From positions 1 through 64,000 of the forward strand of contig JAGXSE010000001.1 of NCBI GenBank assembly GCA_018333865.1: a DNA stretch of 64,000 nucleotides, read 5' to 3'. Source of the DNA: Syntrophomonadaceae bacterium. Lineage in GTDB: Bacteria > Bacillota > PH28-bin88. Made by a program: the position numbers and the translations under genes. The stretch's first letter is position 1. Every line of letters begins with the position of its first letter. Below the pieces are notes generated by a model. It ran no database searches. It saw only the letters and a program-made list of their open reading frames with translations, and was not told the origin of the DNA. Of this stretch, positions 4,915 through 60,862 are shown piece by piece.

Positions 4915-5898
4915 ATGGCTAATGGCATTTGGGTTTTTGCGGAACAACGCAACGGACAGCTGCGCAAAGTAGCTTATGAAATGATGTCAGCCGGCATTAA
5001 ATATGGCCACATCCTGAAACAAGAAGTTTGTGTAGTGGTTATTGGCAACAATATTTCCTGTGCTGTTGAGAAAATTGCAGAACATGGCGTAAACAAGGTT
5101 TTTGTCGCTGAACACCCTCAGCTGGAGACCTATACTACTGACGGATATGCACAGGTTTTAGCAGACCTGGTTAAAGAATATCAACCAGCTGCACTGTTCA
5201 TGGGCAATACAGCTATTGGAAAGGATCTGGCCCCCCGGGTGGCCGAAAGAATTGGTACTGGTTTAATTACTGACTGCATAGCTGTTGAACTTCAGGGAGC
5301 AGATTTTGTCTTTACACGGCCAATTTATGCAGGAAAAGCCTTTGCAAAGGTGATGTGTCCTGCCGCCAGACCGGTAATGGCTACTTTCCGGCCCAATGTA
5401 TTGGGTAGCGAAGAAATGAGAACATCTGAAAAACCCCAACTAATTCAGGTAGAGGTCAATATTCATGACGAGGCTATTCGTACCAAAGTGCGGGAAGTTT
5501 TAGAAAAATCTACCGGACGCGTTGAATTAACTGAAGCAGATATAATTATTTCCGGCGGAAGAGGAATGAAAGGTCCGGAAAACTTTGCCATGCTTGAACA
5601 GCTTGCAGACACCTTTGGAGCAGCGGTAGGAGCTTCCAGGGCAGCTGTTGATGCAGGCTGGCGAGAACACCAGTATCAGGTTGGGCAAACTGGGAAAACG
5701 GTATCACCCGCCCTTTACATTGCCTGTGGAATTTCAGGCGCTATCCAGCACCTGGCCGGAATGTCTTCATCGAAACATATTGTTGCCATCAATAAGGACC
5801 CAGAAGCAAATATTTTTAAAGTTGCAGACTACGGTATTGCTGATGACCTGTTCAAGGTTCTTCCAATACTGAAGGAAGAAATAAAAAAGGTAATGTGA
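4915..5898 (+). CDS. etfA: Electron transfer flavoprotein, alpha subunit
   Basis: The 327-residue product is the common short EtfA, without the N-terminal ferredoxin domain found in some anaerobes. The C-terminal FAD domain shows [20 protein letters not shown] near residues 257-276 and [17 protein letters not shown], the standard FAD-binding signature. It starts at ATG 4915 after a GGGAGG site and follows etfB by 34 bases. It makes a heterodimer with EtfB. No electron-bifurcating acyl-CoA dehydrogenase (bcd) lies in this window, so its dehydrogenase partner must be encoded elsewhere. Confidence 0.95.
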
Positions 5899-5936
5899 TA
5901 TTTTAAGGTTAGTAAAACAAGAAGGAGAGCGGTTCT

Positions 5937-6791
5937 ATGGCTTTTGAAAAAATACTGGTTATCGGTGCTGGCCAAATGGGTAGCGGCATTGCGCAAGTAG
6001 CGGCTCAGTCAGGTCTGATCGTGTATCTGAATGATGTGTCTGAGATTTTTATTAAAAAAGGCGTGGCCTCTATTGAAAAAAATCTGGCCCGGATTGTAGA
6101 AAAAGGAAAAATGGCCACTGAAGAAAAGACGGCAGTAATGGAAAGAGTTCATCCTCTTGCCAGCCTTGCGGAAATTCCCCCTGTGGATTTGGTAATTGAG
6201 GCAGTGAGCGAAAACCTGCAAATAAAGGCAGACCTTTTCAAGCGGCTGGACCAGGCTTGCCCTGAATCAACAATTTTTGCCAGCAACACGTCTTCTTTGC
6301 CGATAACTGAATTGGCCTCTTTGACTTCCCGGCCTGACAGATTTATTGGCATGCACTTTTTTAACCCTGTCCCAGTAATGCAGCTAGTAGAAGTAATTAA
6401 AGGTTTGGCCACCTCCGATGCTGTTGCCCAAGCTATTTTTAATCTTGCCGTAAAACTGGGCAAGGTTCCCGTTATGGTTAATGACTTTCCTGGTTTTGCT
6501 GCCAACAGGATCCTCTTACCAATGATTAATGAGGCGATCTATTGTGTTTACGAGGGTGTTGCAAGTGTTGAGGGCATTGACCAGGTAATGAAACTTGGGA
6601 TGAACCACCCCATGGGTCCACTGGCACTGGCGGATTTAATTGGTCTTGACACCTGCCTGGCAATCATGGAAGTACTTTACCGGGGATTCGGCGATTCTAA
6701 ATACCGGCCCTGCCCTCTATTAACAAAATATGTAAAAGCAGGTTGGCTGGGCAGAAAAACCGGCAAAGGATTTTATGATTACAGCAAATAA
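5937..6791 (+). CDS. hbd: 3-hydroxybutyryl-CoA dehydrogenase
   Basis: The 284-residue product has the usual length for this family. The N-terminal Rossmann fold carries [16 protein letters not shown] near residues 8-23. [15 protein letters not shown] near residues 138-152 holds the catalytic histidine, and the C-terminal dimerisation domain contains [15 protein letters not shown]. It interconverts acetoacetyl-CoA and 3-hydroxybutyryl-CoA using NAD(P)H. It is placed between etfA and a crotonase and follows an AAGGAGAG site. With crt and thl it forms the clostridial C4 route used in either butyrate formation or short-chain fatty acid oxidation. Confidence 0.95.
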
Positions 6792-6841: not shown

Positions 6842-7621
6842 TTGCAGTATGAAAACATAATTTTGGAGACAGACAATAACCTGGCTGTAATAACCATAAA
6901 CAGACCGAAAGCCCTTAATGCGCTAAACTTCGCAACATTGGGCGAATTGGCTCAAGCATTGGATGAAACCGAAAAGAATGAAAACATTGCAGCTTTAATT
7001 ATTTCGGGACAAGGGGAAAAGGCTTTTGTAGCTGGAGCAGATATTTCTTTTATGAAAGATCTTAATCCCATTCAGGCGCGTGAATATGCAATCCTTGGCC
7101 AGATGTTGATGCGAAAGATTGAGAATTTCTCCAAACCGGTTATTGCAGCAGTAAACGGCTTCGCCCTTGGCGGAGGTTGTGAACTGGCGATGAGCTGTGA
7201 CATTAGAATCGCCGCCGAAAATGCCAGGTTTGGGCAGCCTGAGGTTTTATTAGGAGTTACGCCAGGTTTTTCAGGAACACAACGACTTCCCCGTTTAATT
7301 GGCAAAGGTAATGCTCTCCAATTAATGATGACAGGCGAACAGATTTCAGCCCAAAGAGCCTTCGAAATTGGGCTTGTGAATGAAGTTGTTCCCGCAAGCG
7401 AATTGCTGCCCAGGGCCAAAGCCCTTGCGAGCAAAATTGCTGCGAATAGCCCATTTGCTTTAAAATTAGTAAAGGAAGCAGTAAATAATGGCCTGGAGAT
7501 GGAGATTAACAGGGCCATTGCCTTTGAAGCCGAACTTTTCTCTTTATGTTTCGCTTCTCCCGAGCAAAAAGAAGGAATGGCCGCATTTTTAGAAAAGCGT
7601 AAACCGAATTTCCGTAAATAG
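6842..7621 (+). CDS. crt: Enoyl-CoA hydratase / crotonase
   Basis: The 259-residue product belongs to the crotonase superfamily. FVAGADISFMKD near residues 62-73 forms the oxyanion hole region. ALGGGCELAMSCDIRIA near residues 105-121 and QPEVLLGVTPGFSGTQRL near residues 130-147 each carry one of the two acid/base glutamates of hydratases. It should hydrate crotonyl-CoA. TTG 6842 is taken as the start because GGAGG at 6828-6832 lies nine bases upstream; the ATG at 6837 is out of frame. It sits between hbd and thl. Confidence 0.94.
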   Translation: MQYENIILETDNNLAVITINRPKALNALNFATLGELAQALDETEKNENIAALIISGQGEKAFVAGADISFMKDLNPIQAREYAILGQMLMRKIENFSKPVIAAVNGFALGGGCELAMSCDIRIAAENARFGQPEVLLGVTPGFSGTQRLPRLIGKGNALQLMMTGEQISAQRAFEIGLVNEVVPASELLPRAKALASKIAANSPFALKLVKEAVNNGLEMEINRAIAFEAELFSLCFASPEQKEGMAAFLEKRKPNFRK

Positions 7622-23624: not shown

Positions 23625-24677
23625 GTGAAAAAAGTGCCCAAAGAAATAAGTTTTTTAGAAATAAGCGAGCTTAACCCGGTTTTGATTGATGTGAGATCAG
23701 GCAGGGAATATTTGGCGGATCATATCCCAGGCGCTTTTAACGTCCCTCTTCTTAACGATTTGGAGAGGGCCGAGGTAGGCATTGTCTATAAGCAACACGG
23801 TGCTTCCAAGGCAAAAATGCTGGCTTTAAATATGGTTTCCCCAAAGTTGCCTGAGATGATCGAAACCATTAAAGGTCTTGCCGATGGCAAGCCAGTGGTT
23901 GTTTATTGCTGGAGAGGCGGGCTGCGGAGTTACTCCATCGCCAGTGTTTTGTCTATTATGGGAATCAGTGTATTTCGCCTTGAAGGCGGTTATAAAAAAT
24001 TCCGCAAACAAGTGACCCAGTTCTTTGAAGATAGTGTTAATAATGTGTTGGTTGTAAATATTCACGGTCTGGCAGGGACAGGGAAGACAGAAGTAATCAG
24101 AGAGTTGATTAATTTACGGGCACCAGCTGTTGATCTTGAACGACTGGCTGACCATCGCGGCTCAGTGTTTGGGCATATTGGTCTTACTTCTCAACCAACC
24201 CAAAAAGCTTTTGAAACCCGTTTGTTTTATGCTCTGGCTAACCTTACGCGAGCTTCATGCTGCATTCTGGAATGTGAAAGCAGAAGAATAGGCAAACTGT
24301 TATTACCAATAACCTTGCAAAAAGCCATGCAAAGTGGTAAAAATATTCTTATTTACGATACTCTGGAAAACAGGGCCCGCCGGTTAGTTGAGGAATATAC
24401 CAGATCAGGTCTGGAGACACTTGCACAGACCCATCAGGCTCTTGCCGGACTAAAGGACCGGTTAGGCATAGCAAAAGTAAAAAGCATTCAAAACATGATC
24501 CAGCAGGGTAATTTAGTCGAGGCTGCAAAGCTATTGTTAACGGATTATTACGACCCCCTGTATAAGTACCCGAATCAACCTTCTCCGGATTATGAACTGT
24601 GTATCAATAATTGTAATGCAGAAGAGACGGCAAGAATAATTTGCCACCACCTAAAGATTACCTTGAAAAATAATTAG
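23625..24677 (+). CDS. mnmH: tRNA 2-selenouridine synthase
   Basis: The 350-residue product has an N-terminal rhodanese domain with the catalytic cysteine in VVVYCWRGGLRS (Cys95) and a P-loop, IHGLAGTGKTEVI, near residues 147-159. This fusion defines MnmH/SelU, which replaces sulfur by selenium at the wobble 2-thiouridine of tRNAs for Lys, Glu and Gln using selenophosphate, via a geranylated intermediate. Its presence implies selenophosphate synthetase elsewhere in the genome. GTG 23625 is taken as start. It is followed by rodZ after 16 bases. Confidence 0.93.
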   Translation: MKKVPKEISFLEISELNPVLIDVRSGREYLADHIPGAFNVPLLNDLERAEVGIVYKQHGASKAKMLALNMVSPKLPEMIETIKGLADGKPVVVYCWRGGLRSYSIASVLSIMGISVFRLEGGYKKFRKQVTQFFEDSVNNVLVVNIHGLAGTGKTEVIRELINLRAPAVDLERLADHRGSVFGHIGLTSQPTQKAFETRLFYALANLTRASCCILECESRRIGKLLLPITLQKAMQSGKNILIYDTLENRARRLVEEYTRSGLETLAQTHQALAGLKDRLGIAKVKSIQNMIQQGNLVEAAKLLLTDYYDPLYKYPNQPSPDYELCINNCNAEETARIICHHLKITLKNN

Positions 24678-55979: not shown

Positions 55980-56210
55980 GTGATAGAGGTGGCTTGGAAA
56001 TATACAGAACAGCGCGAAGTCGGTGTGTACAGCTTCTGGGCTGGTTTAATTATTGGTTCTCTGGTCACAGTCTTGCTGGCGAAATATTTAGGAATTCTAT
56101 GGTCAGGTATTCTGGTAGTTGGCGGCGGGTTATGTGTCGCAGTGGTAATGAAATTAAGAGATAAGCGGCGGCAGAAGCAGAGGGAGAAGGAACGCAGGCT
56201 TCTTCGCTAG
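55980..56210 (+). CDS. Small membrane protein
   Basis: The 76-residue product has two membrane segments (about 20-36 and 41-58) and a very basic tail, KLRDKRRQKQREKERRLLR. I recognise no family. GTG 55980 or GTG 55989 could be the start. A hairpin 28 bases after the stop (56239-56256) may end its transcript. It is divergent from the amidohydrolase gene. Confidence 0.55.
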   Translation: MIEVAWKYTEQREVGVYSFWAGLIIGSLVTVLLAKYLGILWSGILVVGGGLCVAVVMKLRDKRRQKQREKERRLLR

Positions 56211-56238: not shown

Positions 56239-56256
56239 GGAGAGCAAAGGCTCTCC
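56239..56256. terminator. Hairpin, possible terminator for either strand
   Basis: GGAGAGC/GCTCTCC arms around AAAG are flanked by AT-rich tracts on both sides (TAATTAA left, CAATTATTT right). It could end the small membrane gene and the minus-strand candidate selenoprotein gene. Confidence 0.5.
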
Positions 56257-56270
56257 CAATTATTTAACAG

Positions 56271-56414
56271 CTAGTTCCGTGCATGGAAACATTTTTTTTG
56301 CTTTTCGGAAAAGTCCGGCAGAGTAGATTTGCTGACCTCAGCAAAATCGGGCCTGATTCAATCCCCATCCCCGCCGTGCCACTTGCACGCGGCTAAAAAA
56401 CAAGGATGCTTCAT
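56271..56414 (-). CDS. Candidate small selenoprotein with in-frame TGA
   Basis: GGAGGTG lies eight bases before ATG 56414. The frame runs MKHPCFLAACKWHGGDGD, meets TGA at 56360-56358 and continues IRPDFAEVSKSTLPDF to KQKKCFHARN and TAG 56273-56271, giving 47 residues if TGA is read as selenocysteine. Nineteen bases after the TGA begins the loop AGGT of a hairpin with a seven-base-pair stem (TTTGCTG/CAGCAAA). Spacing and the AGGTC loop sequence match bacterial SECIS rules and recall E. coli fdhF. A hairpin terminator follows. mnmH in this window shows selenium use. The alternatives are an 18-residue peptide or a pseudogene. No family is recognised. Confidence 0.4.
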
Positions 56415-56572
56415 ATTCAATTCACCTCCGCTAACAGAGTATCCAAAGAAGCAACAACCTATTCAAGCAGCAACTTTTCCGGCAGCCAGATATCAAATAT
56501 AATAAAACTAATTAATCATGACACGGGCAGTAAGAGATTGCTGCCCCCGATTATTATGGAAGGAAGAATAAT

Positions 56573-57214
56573 ATGTATTCAGAACAGGTTAATCAAATCC
56601 TGGATGCATTGTCCAAAGCCTATCCGGAAGCAAAAACCGCCTTGATCTTTCGTAACCCCTACGAACTTTTGGTGGCGACAATACTTAGCGCCCAGTCAAC
56701 CGATCGACAGGTCAATCTGATTACGCACAGACTATTTCAAAGGTATCCTGCACCCCATGCCCTGGCCGGTGCAGAGCCGGAGGTTCTGGCGGAGCATATT
56801 AAGGGATGCGGGTTATATAAGAATAAAAGCAATTACCTGATTAAAACGGCTAAACTGCTGGTCGAGAAGCATAACGGTAAAGTGCCCGGCAGGATGGAGG
56901 AGTTAATTAAATTGCCGGGAGTAGGCAGGAAGACAGCTAATGTTGTATTGAGCAATGCTTTTGGCTATCCAGCTCTGGCTGTTGACACACATGTACTAAG
57001 AGTAGCAAACAGGCTGGGATTGGCCAATACCAAGGACCCCCTTAAAGCAGAACAGGAATTGTGTGCTCAGGTGCCTGAGGATAAGTGGGCACAATTTCAT
57101 CACTGGTTAATTTCCCATGGCAGACAGGTATGCCATGCCAGAAGACCCAAGTGCAAAACCTGTCAACTCCAAAAGTGGTGCCGTTATTCTAACTTCAATC
57201 AGCAATCGGTTTAG
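56573..57214 (+). CDS. nth: Endonuclease III
   Basis: The 213-residue product has the helix-hairpin-helix LPGVGRKTANVVLSNAFG near residues 110-127 with the catalytic lysine, the catalytic aspartate in AVDTHVLRVANRLG, and the [4Fe-4S] cluster motif CHARRPKCKTCQLQKWC near the C-terminus. It removes oxidised pyrimidines from DNA and cleaves the abasic site. GGAAGGAAG precedes ATG 56573. Its last four bases overlap the convergent molybdenum hydroxylase gene. Confidence 0.97.
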   Translation: MYSEQVNQILDALSKAYPEAKTALIFRNPYELLVATILSAQSTDRQVNLITHRLFQRYPAPHALAGAEPEVLAEHIKGCGLYKNKSNYLIKTAKLLVEKHNGKVPGRMEELIKLPGVGRKTANVVLSNAFGYPALAVDTHVLRVANRLGLANTKDPLKAEQELCAQVPEDKWAQFHHWLISHGRQVCHARRPKCKTCQLQKWCRYSNFNQQSV

Positions 57215-59517
57215 GCAATCGTCCCTCCTGTCTCCTGTCGGTACTTTTTGGTTAGGCCTGCCAGTATTTTTTCGGGAGTAAGAGGAAGTTTAGTAATCCT
57301 CACTCCTACAGCGTTATAGACTGCATTGGCAACGGCTGCAGCCGTGGGGTTCAAGGCAGGTTCACCAATTCCCTTAGCCCCGTATGGCCCCTTGGGGTCA
57401 TCTGATTCAATAAAAATGGTGTGAAACCGGGCTGGTAAGTCCAAACTGCCGGGAATACGGTAGTCAAGAAAACCAGGGTTTTGGATATGACCCTTGTTGT
57501 CATAGATCATATTCTCGCTCAATGCCCAGCCGATTCCGGTCGCTGCACCGCCGTGTACCTGGCCGGGGAGAGTTAACGAATTTATCACTCTTCCCACGTC
57601 ATGAGCCGCCCAGAAGCCGGTTACCCGTACCTGTCCGGTCACTGTGTTTACTTCCACCTCTGCAATCTGGCAGCCAAAGGGATAAACAGGGGAAATATTG
57701 CCGTATCTCTTGTCATCCGGCAATACTGTATCTGGCACATAATAACCCACAGCAACCATTGGGGCTCCCCCGTGGGAGAACATGTAGTGCCTGGTTACCT
57801 CCGCAACTGTAATCTGCTGTTTAGGCTGATCCTTAATTGAAATTTTTCCCTCATTGATATCCAAGTTATCGGCCGGTTCAGTCAGCATAGCTGCCGCAGT
57901 GTCCAAAATCATTTGTCTTGCCTGCCGGCAGGCAACGATAATACCATTTCCTCCCATAACGGTTCCTCTGGTAGCAAATGAGCCCAGGCCAAAAGGACTG
58001 ATTTGGGTATCCACCTCAGCAACGGTTATGTCTTGCAATGGGACCCCCAGGGTTTCGGCAGCGATCTGAGCAAACACGGTGTCCTGCCCCTGGCCAATAT
58101 CTGCTTCACCATGGATCAGGAAGACCTTCCCGTCTTCCCCGATCCTGATAATTGCGGCCGATCCATCGAAGGGCCGGAAGAAAGGCCGGTTTCCGGACAC
58201 ATGGTTGCAGCAGGCTAAACCAATTCCTTTTTTAATGATCCCTTCTTTAGGAGAAAGCCGCTTAGCTGACCAGCCGGAGGCTGCGATTGCTTTAATGATG
58301 CAATCCTTTAATCCGGAACGGGAAATCTGCCAGCCATGAGCGGAAACATCCCCGGACTGGACAACGTTAACTAATCTCACTTCTGCCGGATCAAGTCCCA
58401 TTTCGCAGGCTGCCCGGTCTAAGAGGCTCTCCAGGGCAAAGGTCATTTGGGCATTGCCGAATCCCCGGAAACACCCGGTTGGGACGGTATTGGTGTAGGC
58501 AAGCAATCCTTCCGTGCGCAGATTATGAATTCTGTACAGGGAATCGATCCGGTAGCAGGCGGTAGCCATAATGGGGGGGCCGTAAACGGTCCTGGCGCCG
58601 TTGCCAGCAATTATGCGCACTTCTTTGGCCAAGATGCTCCCGTCTTTTTTCAGGCCGAGCTTTACCCAAATCTTCATGGGCACTCGCGGGTTGCCTGCGA
58701 TAAAATCTTCTTCCCTGGTATTAACGATTTTTACTGGCCGGTTGGATTTTTGGCTCAGTACTATTGCGGCCAGGTCCACCATGTTTTCGAACTTGGCCCC
58801 AAAGCCGCCACCCACAAAAGGTTTGATCACCCTGATATTCTGCATGGGAATGTTCAATGCCCTGGCATATGTCAGGCGCAGTTTGGAGGGGACTTGAGTT
58901 GAGGCCCACAGGGTAATTTTGCCGTTTTGGGCATCAGCCACTGCATTCATTGGTTCCAGGTAAGCCTGGTAAACCTGGGTGGTGGTAAAGGTGTCTTCCA
59001 CTAGAAAGTCAGCTTCCTTAAAGGCCTGTTCAATGTTGCCCCGTTCCACAAAAAACCTGTTGGCCAGATTGCCTGGTGCGTGCTGATGCACCAAGGGAGC
59101 CTCAGGGAGTAAGGCCTGTTCCATGTCAATAACGGCAGGCAGTTCTTCATAATCAACCCTGATCAAGCTTATGGCTTCCGCAGCCGTGTCCTCATCAACC
59201 GCAGCCACCGCCGCTACTTCGTCTCCTGCAAAGCGCACTTTATCCCGGGCAAAGATTGTCCAGTCATCAATAATCCCCGTGCCAAAATGGTGTCCCGGAG
59301 TATCCTTAAAGGTAACAACGGCTTTAACCCCAGGCATTTTCATGGCTTTGGACGTATCGATACAATGAATTTTGGCATGAGCCAGAGGGCTGCGCAGGAC
59401 TTTTCCCCACAGCATGCCTGGCAGTTTAATGTCGCAGGTGAATTGGGCCTGACCGGTTGCTTTTAAATAGGCTTCGGTGGGGATAACCGGTTTGCCGATA
59501 ATCTTATATTCAGTCAT
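57211..59517 (-). CDS. Molybdenum hydroxylase, large (molybdopterin) subunit
   Basis: The 768-residue product is of the xanthine dehydrogenase family. PFVGGGFGAKFEN near residues 232-244 and QGQDTVFAQIAAE bind the cofactor. The active loop reads GCFRGFGNAQ, not the AYRCSFR of CO dehydrogenase, and the catalytic glutamate lies in YGAKGIGEPALNPT near the C-terminus. It should hydroxylate a purine or another N-heterocycle. The start at 59517 overlaps the 2Fe-2S gene by four bases. Gene order FAD subunit, 2Fe-2S subunit, large subunit is that of coxMSL-type operons. Confidence 0.93.
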   Translation of the reverse strand: MTEYKIIGKPVIPTEAYLKATGQAQFTCDIKLPGMLWGKVLRSPLAHAKIHCIDTSKAMKMPGVKAVVTFKDTPGHHFGTGIIDDWTIFARDKVRFAGDEVAAVAAVDEDTAAEAISLIRVDYEELPAVIDMEQALLPEAPLVHQHAPGNLANRFFVERGNIEQAFKEADFLVEDTFTTTQVYQAYLEPMNAVADAQNGKITLWASTQVPSKLRLTYARALNIPMQNIRVIKPFVGGGFGAKFENMVDLAAIVLSQKSNRPVKIVNTREEDFIAGNPRVPMKIWVKLGLKKDGSILAKEVRIIAGNGARTVYGPPIMATACYRIDSLYRIHNLRTEGLLAYTNTVPTGCFRGFGNAQMTFALESLLDRAACEMGLDPAEVRLVNVVQSGDVSAHGWQISRSGLKDCIIKAIAASGWSAKRLSPKEGIIKKGIGLACCNHVSGNRPFFRPFDGSAAIIRIGEDGKVFLIHGEADIGQGQDTVFAQIAAETLGVPLQDITVAEVDTQISPFGLGSFATRGTVMGGNGIIVACRQARQMILDTAAAMLTEPADNLDINEGKISIKDQPKQQITVAEVTRHYMFSHGGAPMVAVGYYVPDTVLPDDKRYGNISPVYPFGCQIAEVEVNTVTGQVRVTGFWAAHDVGRVINSLTLPGQVHGGAATGIGWALSENMIYDNKGHIQNPGFLDYRIPGSLDLPARFHTIFIESDDPKGPYGAKGIGEPALNPTAAAVANAVYNAVGVRITKLPLTPEKILAGLTKKYRQETGGTIA

Positions 59518-59996
59518 TTCTCGTCCCCCCCAATTTCTTTTGCTGCGGCCAGGATCGCTTCAATTATGTTTTGATAGCCAGTACAGCGACACAGGTTCCC
59601 AGCCACAGCTTCCCGCACTTCCTGTTCCGTCGGGGCAGGGTTAGAGTCTAGCAAGGCTTTTGCAGTAAGAATAAAGCCGGGGGAACAGAAGCCGCACTGG
59701 ATAGCGCCGTGCTGAACAAAGGCGTCCTGGAGGGGATGGAGCCGATTTTCACGGGCTAATCCTTCAATGGTAGTTATCATTTTCCCCGCTGCCTGAACAG
59801 CCAGAATTAGGCAGGAATTAACTGGCTGTCCGTCAAGCAGCACTGTGCAGGCACCGCATTCCCCTTCTCCGCAGCCCTTTTTGGCTCCTGTCAGGCCGAT
59901 GTCTTCCCTTAAAGCGTCTAAGAGGGTCCTGTGAGCAGGAACTAAAAGGTCGTAGCTATCCCCGTTAATTATTAAAGTAATTGGCATTTTTTTCAT
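59514..59996 (-). CDS. Molybdenum hydroxylase, [2Fe-2S] subunit
   Basis: The 160-residue product has a plant-ferredoxin-like domain with KKGCGEGECGACTVLLDG near residues 39-56 and a four-helix domain with QCGFCSPGFILTAKA and NLCRCTGYQNI. These bind two [2Fe-2S] clusters that carry electrons from the molybdenum site to FAD. It overlaps both neighbours by four bases (ATGA type), so the three subunits are translationally coupled. Confidence 0.95.
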   Translation of the reverse strand: MKKMPITLIINGDSYDLLVPAHRTLLDALREDIGLTGAKKGCGEGECGACTVLLDGQPVNSCLILAVQAAGKMITTIEGLARENRLHPLQDAFVQHGAIQCGFCSPGFILTAKALLDSNPAPTEQEVREAVAGNLCRCTGYQNIIEAILAAAKEIGGDEK

Positions 59997-60862
59997 TTAG
60001 ACCATCCTTCTGCCCATGAACTTAAAGCCTGGCAAACCAGCGCTTTAACCATGTGGCGCCGGTAACCGGCGGTGGCTCTGATGTCGGTTATCGGTTGGCA
60101 TTCCGATGCTGCTATTTCAGCGGCTAACTCAATCTTCTCCGGGGTTAGGGGGCATCCGGCAACAATCCCCTCCGCTTCCTGGGCTCGCATAGGGACAGGT
60201 GCTACTGCTCCTAAAGCCAACTTGCAAGCCGTGATCACTCCATCCTTCTCAGCTAAAAGTAACGCAACACTCGCCAGAGATAAATCCATGGTTTGCCGCA
60301 GGCTGTGCTTGAGGTAGGTTGTCTTGCAGTTAGCCGGCGGAAAGGGAATCTGGATTTCCCGGAGGATTTCGCCAGGAGCTAGGTCACACTGCCCTGGCCC
60401 CTGAAAGAAGGAGTCGATTGCTAGCTCTCTTTTTCCGGTCGAACCTGTTATAATAGCTGCTGCTTGCAGGGTTAAAAGTGCTGGTGCCAGTTCCGCCGAG
60501 GGCGCGGCGTTGCACAGATTCCCCCCGATGGTTGCTGTGTTGCGGATCTGCCAGCTGCCTAAAGATTTAGCTGCTAAAGCTAGGGAGGGAAAGTTTTTTC
60601 TGATAGCTGGGTGATTGAGCAGATGATTGATTTTTACCATTGAGCCGATGCGGACCTGGTGGCTTTCCTCAAAAATCAAGTCCAGCCCGGGTATTCTGGC
60701 CAGGTCAACCAGATGGGTTGGATGAGACCTGTTTCTTTTAACAGCAAGCAATAAATCAGTGCCGCCAGCAAGGACTTTTGCTCCCGGATTGGCTAAAAGG
60801 ATTTCATACACCTGGTCCAGGCTGGATGGCGCCAAGTAAACCGGAAAGGCCATCGGCATCAC
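59993..60862 (-). CDS. Molybdenum hydroxylase, FAD-binding subunit
   Basis: The 289-residue product has AKVLAGGTDLLLAVK near residues 29-43 and ATIGGNLCNAAPSAELAPAL near residues 113-132, the FAD-binding signature of the CoxM/XdhB family, followed by the CO dehydrogenase flavoprotein C-terminal domain. It passes electrons to the external acceptor. It is the first gene of the three-subunit operon and is preceded by a GGGAGGTG site. CstA is encoded upstream on the same strand but behind a terminator. Confidence 0.93.
   Translation of the reverse strand: MMPMAFPVYLAPSSLDQVYEILLANPGAKVLAGGTDLLLAVKRNRSHPTHLVDLARIPGLDLIFEESHQVRIGSMVKINHLLNHPAIRKNFPSLALAAKSLGSWQIRNTATIGGNLCNAAPSAELAPALLTLQAAAIITGSTGKRELAIDSFFQGPGQCDLAPGEILREIQIPFPPANCKTTYLKHSLRQTMDLSLASVALLLAEKDGVITACKLALGAVAPVPMRAQEAEGIVAGCPLTPEKIELAAEIAASECQPITDIRATAGYRRHMVKALVCQALSSWAEGWSK

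Follow-up and report, generated by a model that had tools for sequence, protein, structure and literature searches.

Bacterial selenoproteins of the SelB/bSECIS class, for example FdhA, have a UGA codon and, 16-37 nt further on, the G-containing loop of a short hairpin, and they come in Cys/Sec homologue pairs. The published bSECIS rule asks for a loop of 3-9 nt, a stem of 4-16 bp, a G as first or second base of the loop and a distance of 16-37 nt from the UGA (PMC13188914, 2026). The same source tabulates 119 prokaryotic selenoprotein families and subfamilies and covers the dual CXXC motif small selenoprotein NF041197, which is small and rich in Cys and carries its Sec in an RxU/GxU motif. 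We compared these systems to a locus in the window (the whole stretch of 64,000 nucleotides that was analysed, taken from the genome referred to as G000). Judging from the sequence comparisons, it very probably holds the gene for a 47-residue selenoprotein of an uncatalogued family, in which the UGA would be decoded by SelB and a bSECIS. The locus resembles the known class in its UGA, in the placement and loop G of the hairpin and in having Cys homologues, and it shares the GGU(C) loop with FdhA of the host. In contrast to the known members, the window protein has only 47 residues and shows neither a thioredoxin fold nor a UxxC/CxxU motif.

The original prediction had described a minus-strand open reading frame with its own GGAGGTG site, a TGA at codon 19, 28 further codons up to a TAG and a terminator after the stop. 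All of these elements were recovered as stated (Table 1). From the ATG we count 18 sense codons, the TGA, 28 more codons and the closing TAG, and the translated protein is MKHPCFLAACKWHGGDGD-U-IRPDFAEVSKSTLPDFSEKQKKCFHARN. The site GGAGGTG(A) is also found upstream of both orthologues and of the Cys forms introduced below. Beyond the TAG a pattern scan detected the terminator-like stem-loop GGGAGAGC..GCTCTCC at 56257-56240, with a weak T tail. The gene convergent with the candidate encodes a small conserved membrane protein of 76 aa with an Arg-rich tail (55980-56210, plus strand), for which no good Pfam family was found. Relatives of it lie near both orthologues (L036 at ~5812-6027 and L037 at 6844-7077). 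A three-subunit molybdenum hydroxylase operon, similar to xanthine dehydrogenase and 4-hydroxybenzoyl-CoA reductase, occupies 57211-60862 on the minus strand and scores below every NCBIfam equivalog cut-off.

Table 1. Features of the candidate selenoprotein locus and of related genes; positions refer to the window unless a contig or locus is named.
Feature	Position	Strand	Basis or remark
Candidate selenoprotein gene, 47 codons	56271..56414	-	Translation; tblastn orthologues with TGA at the same codon; pS >> pN
In-frame TGA, codon 19, probable Sec codon	56358..56360	-	Invariant in 3/3 orthologues; Cys in distant homologues
Putative bSECIS hairpin UUUGCUG-AGGU-CAGCAAA	56328..56345 (loop 56335-56338)	-	Stem and spacing shared by three genomes; one compensated pair
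Ribosome-binding site GGAGGTG	56423..56429	-	Sequence
Terminator-like hairpin between convergent genes, 3' of the candidate gene	56240..56257	-	Pattern scan; T tail weak on this strand
Candidate weak sigma-70-like promoter GTGTCA-17-TATATT	56496..56524	-	Consensus scan only; 3 found vs 1.9 expected
Two FdhA (formate dehydrogenase alpha) genes, each with an in-frame TGA followed by a GGUCU-loop hairpin	G000:C39:36002-37999; G000:C2:22393-24546		
Cys form in G002, which also has the Sec form	L091:1498-1695 (G002:C80:10521-10640)	-	Apparent GTG start after GGAGGTG

Using tblastn we obtained one strong match in each of two other genomes of the same family, G001 and G002 (E 1.3e-11 and 1.9e-10). 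The matching proteins, MQQACFLSNCRWYDGDGD-U-IRPPLAEASKPTIPRARPEPKECFEPK and MQQPCPMTTCRWYDGDGD-U-MKPTFAGVSKRDLPRRSHGARDCFQSR, are encoded with one TGA each, at the same codon as in the window gene and with conserved sequence on both sides (identity 46-49%), and neither homologue has a plain stop or a frameshift there. The three Sec-form genes, which make up the whole Sec-form sample and all come from one bacterial family, agree in start, ribosome-binding site, overall length and the position of the TGA. Of the 47 columns 16 are invariant, among them the Sec position and columns on either side of it. Gene order is conserved as well: nth - (GH18 protein) - selenoprotein gene - (treble-clef Zn protein) - small membrane protein - amidohydrolase. 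A scan of the wider genome contigs returned only these two orthologues and a third match (L038) that is due to chance and lies inside the frame of another gene. The DNA-level search of relatives gave chance matches only, and viral contigs and plasmids contained no match to the family.

Purifying selection is visible on both sides of the TGA. Across the whole open reading frame pS is 0.76-0.78, and thus near saturation, compared to a pN of 0.27-0.35 (p 1.5e-4 to 1e-6). For the part downstream of the TGA alone we observed a pS of 0.64-0.78 and a pN of 0.37-0.42 (p 0.003, 0.035 and 0.041), and the real alignment of the C-terminal part outscored all 20,000 shuffles. There are other possible reasons for this conservation. 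The TGA could be the genuine stop of an 18-residue peptide gene, followed by a conserved but non-coding RNA element or leader; leader peptides commonly take the form of a short open reading frame followed by a hairpin, and the window hairpin alone is unremarkable (fold z-score -0.29). However, the codon-level selection extends beyond the TGA as far as C42-F43 and the stop codon, the Cys forms read straight through to the same C-terminal C-F/Y, and in G001 a strong terminator (GGGGGTGATACAAACCCCC...TTTTTTTTT) sits directly 3' of the TAA that closes the extended frame. Nor do the three loci have a downstream co-directional gene in common that a leader could control, as the selenoprotein gene is followed by the convergent membrane protein in the window, by a Zn-finger gene about 260 nt off in G002 and by a convergent aldo/keto reductase in G001. 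We consider a leader peptide very improbable. Even less probable is that an antisense gene casts the sense conservation as its shadow. Antisense frame 1 is indeed open across the reading frame in all three genomes and its pS exceeds its pN, but the contrast is stronger in the sense frame (p 1e-4 to 1e-6 compared to 1e-3). Furthermore the antisense frames, of 57, 154 and 94 aa, have differing ends and start codons, whereas the sense frames share start, ribosome-binding site and length, and Cys homologues occur in the sense frame only.

If the extended sense frame encodes a selenoprotein, a bSECIS is expected behind the TGA. The stem TTTGCTG/CAGCAAA with the loop AGGT at 19 nt, which had been put forward for this role, is present exactly as claimed and lies within the limits of PMC13188914 for distance, loop G, loop size and stem length. 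In each of the three genes the stem has 7 bp and the loop 4 nt, with a spacing of 19 nt (UUUGCUG-AGGU-CAGCAAA, CUUGCUG-AGGC-CAGCAAG and UUUGCUG-GGGU-CAGCAAA). The outer stem pair changes from U-A to C-G in one orthologue; it is the sole compensatory pair, and with three sequences it is not significant in the covariation shuffle control (171/500). Under synonymous recoding of the three genes an identical stem arose at this position with a frequency of 0.008, 0.001 and 0.030, respectively. Among random sequences of like composition, about 3% pass the bSECIS rule when a stem of 7 bp or more is required. It is the recurrence of stem, loop size and spacing across the three orthologues that goes beyond chance, not the single hairpin. 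An Rfam search returned nothing relevant. In the mechanism that we propose, ribosomes would initiate at the ATG at 56414, and SelB with Sec-tRNA-Sec would bind the hairpin, which starts 12 nt past the UGA. Selenocysteine would be inserted at codon 19 and translation would continue to the TAG that ends at 56271, so that a selenol would stand where the Cys form has its third cysteine. We judge actual insertion at this codon to be very likely.

The original prediction had suggested looking for homologues with Cys at the codon-19 position, and such homologues were found, with Cys exactly at the Sec position. When the Sec-protein profile (n=3) was run against 399 genomes, the first Cys-form match was weak (E 0.003), and most of the weak matches in the phylum were discarded for lack of a start, a ribosome-binding site or an open frame. 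The link between Sec and Cys forms rests on the full-length pattern, the agreement in start and ribosome-binding site and a profile test. The Cys form of G121 is a 49-aa open reading frame with its own ribosome-binding site and Cys at the Sec position (MPEICPLSSCRWCSPDGSCLHEDYKGYLNDCLSALKGTSEYVDCYEQRE). Further Cys forms were detected in G048, G086 and G153, and then in G047 (E 2.9e-7); the Cys-form homologues measure 46-49 aa. The Cys form of G002 (VSDALRCFRDDCRWCQDGCCTQEAIPGKKVNSAAPPCDCPSCFEPR) ends with CPSCFEPR. In the profile test hhalign aligned the Sec and Cys profiles over their full length with a probability of 97% and a score of 46.7, compared to a maximum of 22.8 in 300 shuffled controls that kept the Cys columns. 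M1, C5, C10, G17, U/C19 and C42 are invariant across the aligned Sec and Cys set. Four of these positions are Cys or Sec (C5, C10, U/C19 and C42), and the family pattern is C-x4-C-[RK]-[WH]-x(4-5)-G-x-U/C ... C-[FY]. The genomes with Cys forms carry selA too, thus their use of Cys does not stem from an absence of selA.

All three of selA, selB and selC, the absence of which would have counted against selenocysteine, are present in the host genome. The tRNA-Sec gene lies at C40:19728 (70.3 bits; anticodon TCA by ARAGORN); selB adjoins this gene, and selA adjoins selB at C40:21873. The mnmH gene at 23625, which had been cited as a sign of selenium use, matches NF008750 with 367.7 bits (cut-off 241). 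MnmH requires selenophosphate. The FdhA genes of G000, G001 and G002 each contain a single in-frame TGA. In the two copies of G000 this TGA falls on the U-H-x-P site and is followed by GGUCU-loop hairpins about 18 nt downstream; these two genes could serve as SECIS positive controls for the host genome. That the TGA encodes some other amino acid, by leaky read-through or by an altered code, under which no SECIS would be needed, is very improbable. TGA is an ordinary stop here, ending 9 of the 42 window open frames that reach 250 codons or more, and this speaks against a reassigned code. In addition, the anticodon of tRNA-Trp is CCA, the TGA of FdhA sits precisely at the Sec site, and distant homologues have at position 19 a Cys, which is the usual counterpart of Sec. 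Orthologues, Cys forms, hairpin and selA/selB/selC all support the candidate small selenoprotein, and the Sec reading has all the strength that three Sec sequences can lend it by comparative genomics.

We then placed the protein relative to described families. Pfam and NCBIfam gave no family-level match and a sequence search of the PDB gave no match. It has no counterpart among the 119 entries (families and subfamilies) of PMC13188914; the families of Haft and Tolstoy 2025 were compared via that table and the NCBIfam models. By these comparisons the candidate is a new, very small selenoprotein family inside the known class of bacterial SelB/bSECIS selenoproteins. NF041197 is likewise small and Cys-rich, with its Sec inside an RxU/GxU motif; however, its defining CXXC motifs are missing from the window protein and the model gave no match. 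For NF041603 (PSPA7_2676 family Cys-rich small protein) the first 15 residues weakly resemble the G002 orthologue (E 0.043), but the score is 13.9 bits over residues 1-15 only, compared to a cut-off of 35, and the window protein and the other orthologue have no match. The small four-Cys Firmicutes proteins of DUF1540 (PF07561) are similar in being short and in their C-x4-C-x-(Y/W/F) ... C ... C spacing, and one of them (L090, G189:C6:74075) is a weak match of the family profile (E 0.009). We rejected membership in DUF1540: there is no Pfam match, the sequence between the Cys is unlike, and the profile-profile probability is 1-3%, calculated with 20 sequences, one of which, L117, was mis-extracted. 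DUF1540 proteins occur separately in the same genomes and are found in 54 of 61 genomes of the phylum.

Four invariant Cys/Sec positions within 47 residues suggest a small centre that binds metal or acts in redox chemistry, comparable to other four-Cys miniproteins. A biochemical role as a small thiol/selenol centre with four ligands is plausible by this analogy, though our confidence in it falls a little short of even. The AlphaFold model has a mean pLDDT of 45, so the proposed function has no support from any fold. Sec may replace a metal-ligating or redox cysteine in this family of 46-47 aa, and we suggest tentatively, as something that could nearly as well be true as false, that the result would be a minimal selenolate centre outside the thioredoxin-like and molybdopterin enzymes. 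The family would be one of the smallest among selenoproteins, with a Cys/Sec comparison at hand that includes a Cys relative within one Sec-form genome. Its 47 residues are within reach of chemical synthesis, and because of the small size and the Cys/Sec pair the contribution of Sec in a minimal four-ligand protein could be tested directly. Gene callers stop this gene at 18 codons, thus it and its orthologues have likely been missed in annotation, and tiny genes of this kind suggest that selenoproteomes are still undercounted.

The neighbourhoods of the Sec and Cys forms share no gene that would indicate a pathway, and the HEPN neighbour described here is absent at the Sec forms. The Cys forms adjoin HEPN-domain genes in G047 and G048 (both by Pfam) and in G121 (by similarity only). 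At the Cys-form loci (L047, L048, L053 and L042) the HEPN genes come with a nucleotidyltransferase-like part, either upstream or fused, and Cys forms of two lineages also adjoin DUF4342 genes. A functional link to these HEPN and DUF4342 neighbours is possible for the Cys forms and has no counterpart at the Sec forms.
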